A stretch of DNA of 44,394 nucleotides from Candidatus Kaiserbacteria bacterium (lineage in GTDB: Bacteria; Patescibacteriota; Minisyncoccia; Phycocordibacterales; Phycocordibacteraceae), in NCBI GenBank assembly GCA_016217905.1, contig JACRFL010000002.1, positions 82,817-127,210 of the forward strand, written 5' to 3'. Of the stretch, positions 27,700-32,718 are shown one piece after another. The stretch's first letter is position 1. Each line of letters starts with the position of its first letter. The translations under genes and the position numbers were made by a program. The notes under the pieces are model-generated. The model was not told where the DNA came from. It made no database searches and saw only the letters and a program-made list of their open reading frames with translations.

Positions 27700-28526
27700 A
27701 TGATCACTTTTAGAGAACAATGTATAGCCCTGCGAGAGAGGGACTACAGCATCATTGAAATAATGAAAGTTACGGGGCGGGCAAAAACTTCGGTATACAC
27801 GCATATCAAAGACATGCCATTGAGCGAGAAGCGCATAGAAAGATACAGAGTTGCTTCAGGTGAATGGATTAGGAAATTTGCCCTCGCAAGAAAAGGAAAA
27901 AGTAACCGCTCGTTTCTAACTTTTGATAAATGGTCTACTAAGACCGTACTATTGGTCGCGCACCTACTTTTTGATGGAGAGATTACTCGCGGGAAATGCG
28001 TTTATAATAACCGCAGCGAAGAACTTCTCGAACGTGTTGAAAACTAGTCCGTGAGCAATATGATTTCGAGCCGAAACGGTATAAGAATCAAGTGACTGGG
28101 GTCGCAAGAATTAGTTATCATAATGTGGCTCTCGGGACTTATCTACAGAAAAAATCTAAGGAACTATTGAAACAAGTCAAAAAAATGCCATTGGATTTTA
28201 AGCGAGAATTCGTGCGCGCATTTTTTGACGATGAAGGATGCATGGATTTTCGTTCTTCAGGACGAAAAAGAGTCCGCGGATATCAAAAAGACATTCGAGT
28301 ATTAAAGATAATTCGAGGACTTTTGAGCAATTTTGGTATTACAGCGCGAATAGCGCTTCCTAACGAAGTAGTGATTGTCGGAAAAGAAAATCTTATTCGA
28401 TTCGAACGCGAAATTAATTTCTCGCCCGGCGTGTTTATAAATGGGAACCGTACAAACAGCCGCTGGAAAAAGCATCTGGAGAAAAGAGTGCTTCTGCGGA
28501 TGGCGATTGAGTCGTTTAAAAACTAG
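27700..28526 (+). pseudogene. HTH + LAGLIDADG-type homing endonuclease, split into two ORFs (27700..28047, 28092..28526)
   Basis: HTH-like N-terminus SIIEIMKVTGRAKTSVYTHIKDMPLS; motif 1 LLVAHLLFDGEI, motif 2 FVRAFFDDEGCMDF. Continuity VEK-LVREQYDFEPKRYKNQVTGVARISY is restored by one extra A at 28040-28043. Confidence 0.75.
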
Positions 28527-31682: not shown

Positions 31683-31714
31683 TGGTGCTCTCGACCGGAA
31701 TCGAATCGTCATTT
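31683..31714 (-). other. tRNA 3'-end fragment (T-arm + acceptor + CCA) resembling tRNA-Arg(GCG)
   Basis: AAATGACGATTCGATTCCGGTCGAGAGCACCA aligns without gaps to CAATGACAGTTCGATTCTGTCCGAGAGCACCA of the tRNA at 32644-32718; no 5' half present. Confidence 0.7.
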
Positions 31715-31751
31715 AGCGCGCCATTCTCGACGCTTTTTATTTTTAAAACGG

Positions 31752-31823
31752 TGCTCCCACGAGGAGTCGGACCTCGATTTCAGGCTTCGGAGGCCTGCGC
31801 TCTATCCGTTGAGCTATGGAAGC
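31752..31823 (-). tRNA. tRNA-Arg(CCG)
   Basis: GCTTCCA...TGGGAGC acceptor; anticodon stem-loop CAGGC-CTCCGAA-GCCTG; T-arm CGAGG-TCCGACT-CCTCG. Confidence 0.9.
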
Positions 31824-31835
31824 TACACAAGAAAG

Positions 31836-32555
31836 TTACCACAATTTACTTTTTGCACTCACGTGCGCGACCTGAAGGGATATTTCTTTTCCAAGAGCGA
31901 TCAGTTCTCGCTGTATCGCACTCGAAGAATAATGAAGGTTACAAATGCCATAGAAATTTCTCTTATAGTTCCTTTTCTTGCCGCTCCGCGGCTTGAGATA
32001 AATCTTCCAAAACTGTGTAGTAGGTATATGAAGTTTCTCAGACCAAAACTGTCGAGTTTGACTTCGATTGTGATAGTAATGCACCAGAAGACCCACACGA
32101 AGCCGACTCTCATTGATTTTATAATGTTTTCGCAAGAGAGAAATAAAAATCAGCATAAGTTCTGGGTCAGTATTCGTGAATTTCATACTTCCGTCCGTCT
32201 TTCCACCTTCTGCCCAATACAGCATAGCGAGCAGGGCCTTTCCGACGGCTTCTTGAAGAATCGGGACGCGAGTTGCAACTTGTTTAGCGGCACCCTCAGC
32301 CTCCTTGATTCGTGATGCTTTTTGCCGATTCTTTGCGGCAATCGAAGCAATTCTCGCGAGACGCAAATGCGCGAGTTGTTGGGTACGGTCTTGTTTTTTA
32401 CCCGCTCGACTAAACCAGTAGGACAGGGTGCTTTTCGGGATCGGATATTTTTTCTGTATCTGCGCATAGGTATTTCCAAGGGCGCCTAATTCCAATACCC
32501 GTTTTTTTGTCTCCTCTGGATATCGAGTACCAGCCACAGGTTCATTATATAGCAA
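31836..32555 (-). CDS. HTH + LAGLIDADG-like endonuclease-type protein
   Basis: N-terminal HTH-like TYAQIQKKYPIPKSTLSYWFSRAGKK; ALLAMLYWAEGGKTDGSMKFTNTDPELMLIFISLLRKHY...FWKIYLKPRSGKKRNYKRNFYGICNLHYSSSAIQRELIALG. AT-rich island. Confidence 0.6.
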   Translation of the reverse strand: MLYNEPVAGTRYPEETKKRVLELGALGNTYAQIQKKYPIPKSTLSYWFSRAGKKQDRTQQLAHLRLARIASIAAKNRQKASRIKEAEGAAKQVATRVPILQEAVGKALLAMLYWAEGGKTDGSMKFTNTDPELMLIFISLLRKHYKINESRLRVGLLVHYYHNRSQTRQFWSEKLHIPTTQFWKIYLKPRSGKKRNYKRNFYGICNLHYSSSAIQRELIALGKEISLQVAHVSAKSKLW

Positions 32556-32643
32556 TAATTAACTGTCGATAGATGTATGAGTCCAATTCTGTGGACAAGA
32601 TTTGATAGGGCAATCTCGGGCCAAAAACTTACAGAATTTTGTC

Positions 32644-32718
32644 TGGTGCTCTCGGACAGAATCGAACTGTCATTGCCGGATCCGCAATCCGGTGTCCTAT
32701 CCGTTGAACGACGAGAGC
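32644..32718 (-). tRNA. tRNA-Arg(GCG), CCA encoded
   Basis: GCTCTCG/CGAGAGC acceptor, CCGGA-TTGCGGA-TCCGG anticodon arm, GACAG-TTCGATT-CTGTC T-arm, ACCA. Confidence 0.93.

Follow-up and report, generated by a model that had tools for sequence, protein, structure and literature searches.

A family of HTH and LAGLIDADG-like genes in Patescibacteria whose clades are each linked to a single tRNA isoacceptor

tRNA genes are usually regarded as docking sites for integrases. The locus described here comes from a 610-kb genome of a Candidatus Kaiserbacteria bacterium and holds an endonuclease-like gene among tRNA-Arg genes. It lies in a 44,394-nucleotide stretch of DNA, the whole of which is called the window, and its features are collected in Table 1. 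A sequence-only reading of the window had described an HTH and LAGLIDADG-like ORF between two intact tRNA-Arg genes, with an orphan tRNA 3' segment at the far end, and had proposed that the insert arose by tRNA-targeted integration. The inventory was confirmed. Both intact tRNAs were found by ARAGORN and Rfam, the 32-nt segment is present and aligns gap-free with the last 32 nt of tRNA-Arg(GCG) (26/32, with CTGGTGCTCTCG common to both), no recombinase occurs among the ORFs of the segment, and the proposal that an endonuclease-like gene moves together with a cargo tRNA is supported.

Table 1. Features of the window segment (positions are those of the window)
Feature	Position	Strand	Basis
tRNA-Arg 3' remnant, 32 nt, just after rpsT	31683-31714	-	direct comparison
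Divergent tRNA-Arg(CCG), paired with the gene	31750-31823	-	ARAGORN and Rfam
Extended -10-like sequence TGGTAACTT, overlapping the stop codon of the gene; candidate tRNA-Arg(CCG) promoter	31833-31841	-	sequence
HTH and LAGLIDADG-like gene, putative free-standing homing endonuclease	31836-32537	-	233 aa from GTG
TATAAT box, 6 nt upstream of the likelier start, GTG; putative near-leaderless promoter	32544-32549	-	sequence
TTGTCCACA, one mismatch from the DnaA-box-like TTATCCACA	32590-32598	-	left-end motif enriched across the family
tRNA-Arg(GCG)	32644-32718	-	ARAGORN and Rfam

The window locus and its counterparts in relatives

The order in gene-free relatives is rpsT, native tRNA-Arg(CCG), tRNA-Arg(GCG) and DUF gene. 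A single intact tRNA at the empty site would have supported insertion; the gene-free sites carry two, tRNA-Arg(CCG) and tRNA-Arg(GCG). The latter occupies the same spot beside the DUF gene in unit-free relatives, and we regard it as a native neighbour outside the unit rather than as part of it. The functional partner of the window gene is the downstream tRNA-Arg(CCG), which begins 12 nt past the stop codon. Two loci, L075 and L076, are rearranged: here rpsT is directly followed by tRNA-Arg(GCG), and tRNA-Arg(CCG) lies on the opposite strand.

The tRNA-Arg(CCG) of the window is of a type that occurs in 5 of 93 congeners, with 93-99% identity. Other matches to most of its length reach about 80% identity or less. 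It is the sole CCG tRNA found in the window genome, which is 95% complete. Three units combine the gene with this divergent tRNA beside rpsT, namely the window, L124 and L125. L124 is the same contig as in the congener G098, a carrier of the divergent tRNA that has a family gene nearby in the layout of the window, and L125 is a window-layout unit in a Kaiserbacteria MAG from Baikal that lacks tRNA-Arg(GCG) at this place. Another carrier, G069, has a family gene upstream of tRNA-Arg(GCG) instead, and in G003, G027 and G069 the divergent tRNA occurs without the gene directly beside it. At the G027 locus (L118) a GIY-YIG ORF (Pfam E 8.1e-15) stands in the place of the window gene beside the same divergent tRNA, between tRNA-Arg(CCG) at 1848-1920 and tRNA-Arg(GCG) at 2320-2392.

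No fragment of the kind left in the window is present in the sister units L124 and L125. The best scores of the window fragment are with the native tRNA-Arg(CCG) of L080 and L094 (24), compared with 21 for the window's own tRNA-Arg(GCG), a small margin. Because relatives have the native tRNA-Arg(CCG) at this position and the sister units lack the fragment, we read it as probably the 3' remnant of a displaced native tRNA-Arg(CCG). The gene, together with the divergent tRNA-Arg(CCG), has thus probably displaced the bacterium's own copy of this tRNA.

The protein family and its distribution

The ORF that had been placed at 31836-32555 (minus strand) exists, but GTG at 32537 is a likelier start than its TTG, because relatives align from the VAG/MAG position and TATAAT lies 6 nt upstream. 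The structure model of the protein (pLDDT 91.9) combines an HTH and a long helix with an alpha/beta domain. The HTH is supported by weak Pfam matches in many family members; the LAGLIDADG assignment drew support from a profile comparison with I-DmoI, but none from Pfam or fold searches. The family alignment contains a single LYWxEGxK motif in which E116, G117 and K119 (counted from the TTG start) are nearly or fully invariant. In I-DmoI it is the second LAGLIDADG motif, GLYVAEGDK, that the family profile matches, with an E value of 8.5e-5, and the conserved E116 and K119 line up with its EGDK. Pfam assigned no LAGLIDADG family to the window protein, and the 25 commonest Pfam families over 60 members include HTH and similar domains only and no LAGLIDADG; this check is a test of curated models and says nothing on descent. 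Foldseek with the confident model gave no match at E<0.001 to PDB or viral structures and no LAGLIDADG structure, and the nuclease assignment therefore rests on the motif. Searches of Pfam, NCBIfam and PHROGs returned no curated name, only weak HTH and unrelated matches, and a literature search of titles and abstract openings, largely of open-access papers, returned no description. The proteins thus constitute an uncurated and apparently undescribed HTH and LAGLIDADG-like family in Patescibacteria.

Four family loci, intact or decayed, are found in the window genome, the others being one beside tRNA-Ile(TAT), one beside tRNA-Val(TAC) and one that is decayed. A 60-member profile has at least one match in 66 of 93 congeners, with none in many genomes and up to 12 in one (G088, a genome of about 0.8 Mb); the weakest of these matches cover the HTH part only and may be other proteins. 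Matches were found phylum-wide in 50 of 146 genomes, some of them weak, and a scan of GTDB genomes for the Arg clade yielded 17 loci, all in Patescibacteria groups except two labelled only bacterium or uncultured bacterium. A query of IMG/VR with the Arg clade found no viral relative.

Decayed copies of the family exist. Where computable, dN/dS is 0.03-0.12, with synonymous sites near or at saturation, values that point to strong purifying selection and do not resemble those of a gene drifting to decay. The carriers are scattered: on a marker tree, the most parsimonious count of changes is the same as the number of carriers for each isoacceptor tested. This tree is a weak one, built from two proteins, and three genomes lack one of the two. 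Gene identity is discordant with marker identity among carriers. The flanks and the gene are similarly conserved in the Ile(TAT) pair of G000 and G005. Most tRNAs of a carrier genome have no partner gene.

Linkage to tRNA genes and the recurrent unit

Family genes almost always adjoin a tRNA gene, in most cases as its immediate upstream neighbour in the same orientation, and each clade is tied to one isoacceptor. A same-strand tRNA lies just downstream in 51 of 67 copies. The stop codon falls between 84 nt inside this tRNA and 24 nt before it in 50 of the 67, and in 13 of those 50 it is formed by U8-A9-G10 of the tRNA, so that the gene ends at tRNA position 10. Chance adjacency is estimated at about 0.3% per gene from 39 tRNAs in 610 kb. 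A second, phylum-wide sample contains a same-strand tRNA within 110 nt in 27 of 29 loci. When isoacceptors are placed on a quick protein tree, the 19 states require 18 changes, the minimum, and shuffled labels require 44-54. Chance adjacency is excluded by this family-wide linkage, which is seen in the 67 loci, the tree and the second sample.

Several copies without a detected tRNA are found beside tRNAs split by group I introns, at contig ends, or tail-to-tail with a tRNA. The group I intron model (Rfam RF00028) scores above gathering in L060 and L061 and more weakly in L004 and L063, and in L026, L031 and L048 the family gene lies upstream of an intron-split tRNA-Thr(GGT), as read by eye. 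The window's own, unoccupied tRNA-Thr(GGT) (L148) is intronless and has no family gene just upstream. A tRNA-Asn-like gene interrupted near the anticodon is positioned just past a family gene in L172. In L015, another of the copies without a detected tRNA, at about 1203-1503 a tRNA-Ser(CGA) 3'-end piece, CGAATCTCCCTCTCTCCGC, is repeated upstream of the gene, resembling an integration repeat.

Comparison of locus pairs shows a recurrent unit, of putative promoter, gene and tRNA, which begins about 40-80 nt upstream of the gene and stops exactly at the tRNA 3' end. Four pairs, Ile(TAT), Ile(GAT), Gly(TCC) and Gly(GCC), are similar over this span and have unlike or differently spaced sequence outside its borders, and in the remaining pairs similarity runs over longer or shorter stretches. 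The unoccupied spacer between tRNA-Arg(TCG) and tRNA-Gly(GCC) measures 41-47 nt in G000, G027 and G023 and at least 741 nt when occupied. These nuclease-like genes lie outside introns and inteins, and relatives have alleles that are unoccupied.

The left end of family genes is enriched in TATCCACA, GAAC and TATAAT, the last being observed upstream of family members 21 times against 6.7 expected. Extended -10-like sequences are enriched in the final codons ahead of the tRNA, being present for 73% of linked tRNAs compared with 25% of windows inside coding regions. GAAC clusters about 25 nt ahead of the gene starts. A motif like the DnaA-box-like TTATCCACA, with at most one mismatch and within 180 nt upstream, is found in 24 of 67 copies against about 3-4 expected, examples being the window copy, L053 and L055.

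Homing and competing explanations

We lean, with moderate confidence, towards the view that these putative nucleases are free-standing homing endonucleases parasitising tRNA loci, as phage SegB does, with each clade locked to an isoacceptor. Repair from an occupied allele would copy the gene in, plus more or less of the neighbouring tRNA, and the host would be spared because the tRNA remains whole and the last codons of the gene can hold the tRNA promoter. The window gene would have arrived with its divergent tRNA-Arg(CCG) and replaced the native tRNA, a 3' piece of which remained. Homing at tRNA loci would explain the adjacency, the isoacceptor specificity, the patchiness, the discordant identities, the decay and the replaced tRNA. 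Against it we count the low dN/dS, the missing LAGLIDADG fold match, the occurrence of identical tRNAs with and without the gene, and also the divergent tRNA-Arg(CCG) that stands without the gene directly beside it in three genomes. Identical occupied and unoccupied tRNAs are exemplified by Ile-GAT of G000 and G003 and by Gly-GCC of G000 and L027/L042; since such tRNAs can be identical, protection cannot generally lie in the tRNA, and a target spanning the insertion point is a natural candidate in its place.

The main rival to homing is that the proteins are domesticated DNA-binding proteins, each regulating or helping to maintain the adjoining tRNA gene through its HTH and LAGLIDADG-like domain, with no homing now. 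In its favour are strong purifying selection with synonymous sites close to or at saturation, the fixed order and distance to the tRNA, the promoter-like sequence within the 3' end of the gene, the undisrupted tRNA and the lack of nuclease fold matches. We nevertheless think it unlikely, given the patchy occurrence among the 93 congeners, the many tRNAs of a carrier that have no partner, the scatter of carriers over the marker tree, the decayed copies, and the alignment of E116 and K119 with EGDK of I-DmoI. It is less likely still that the units act by natural cleave-and-rescue, a scheme in which the enzyme would eliminate the native tRNA gene while the unit supplied a resistant substitute, leaving the isoacceptor to carriers alone. 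The window, with a divergent tRNA-Arg(CCG) by the gene, a native remnant and no other CCG tRNA, resembles what this would produce, and divergent types also occur among the linked tRNAs for Arg(TCG) and, in two cases, Gly(TCC); but linked and unlinked tRNAs have the same sequence for Ile(GAT) and Gly(GCC), Gly(TCC) is of native type in L040, and the divergent tRNA-Arg(CCG) occurs without the gene, so that cleave-and-rescue is at best true for some units. Such identity of linked and unlinked tRNAs is also why the resistant-tRNA model was rejected as a general rule.

Two further accounts concern the fragment. Taken alone, its origin is uncertain: it is short and degraded, the gap between scores of 24 and 21 is small, and in L075 and L076 it is tRNA-Arg(GCG) that comes after rpsT, all of which would suit decay of an unrelated tandem tRNA with the gene beside tRNAs merely by chance. 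The family-wide linkage excludes such chance adjacency, and the position of the fragment fits the native tRNA-Arg(CCG) in most relatives that have a tRNA there, making this account improbable. We give least credence of all, and very little, to site-specific integration into a tRNA with duplication of its end, as the sequence-only reading had it from the intact tRNA on one side and the tRNA 3' piece on the other. The supposed boundary, tRNA-Arg(GCG), accompanies tRNA-Arg(CCG) in unit-free relatives and is missing from L125, both sister units lack the supposed duplicated end, and the segment is without any recombinase, whereas tRNA-integrated genomic islands are marked by an integrase and a direct repeat of the tRNA 3' end. 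The far side of other family loci carries no duplicated tRNA end in general, short T-arm matches being confined to L040-L042.

Among known systems, the nearest in way of life is SegB of phages T4 and T6, a free-standing homing endonuclease gene adjoining tRNA genes (PMC13096335, which cites PMC2330249). The repeat unit in T6 is tRNA-Tyr plus segB; the 5' end of the tRNA and the 3' end of segB share microhomology, and a preference for particular isotypes is not reported (PMC13096335). SegB is a GIY-YIG enzyme of phages, whereas the present family is LAGLIDADG-like and cellular, with each clade tied to one isoacceptor. LAGLIDADG homing endonucleases such as I-DmoI share the match over GLYVAEGDK, but the family has a single motif and an extra HTH, is not found inside introns, and gives no fold match. 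Intronless homing has been reviewed, as has collaborative homing, in which a free-standing endonuclease pairs with a group I intron in its vicinity (PMC3984707); some members resemble the latter in standing beside tRNAs split by group I introns, although most have no intron. LAGLIDADG genes are present in rRNA insertions of CPR bacteria, the same bacterial group, but these lie inside rRNA genes, and the main text of that report never mentions tRNA (PMC11270868).

In these streamlined genomes the genes of a whole, apparently unnamed protein family are each linked to a tRNA isoacceptor, and in one instance, the tRNA-Arg(CCG) of the window, there seems to have been an exchange of the tRNA as well. 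Whether the replacement of tRNA genes is driven by selfish nucleases, and how a nuclease keeps its specificity for one isoacceptor, thereby become testable questions; were cleave-and-rescue of an essential tRNA gene true, selfish genes would sweep tRNA alleles through Patescibacteria. Elsewhere in the window, a frame-shifted gene at 27700-28526 (plus strand), directly after tRNA-Lys(TTT), comprises an HTH part followed by LAGLIDADG_3 (Pfam E 1.2e-10) and represents a second, different nuclease relic adjoining a tRNA.
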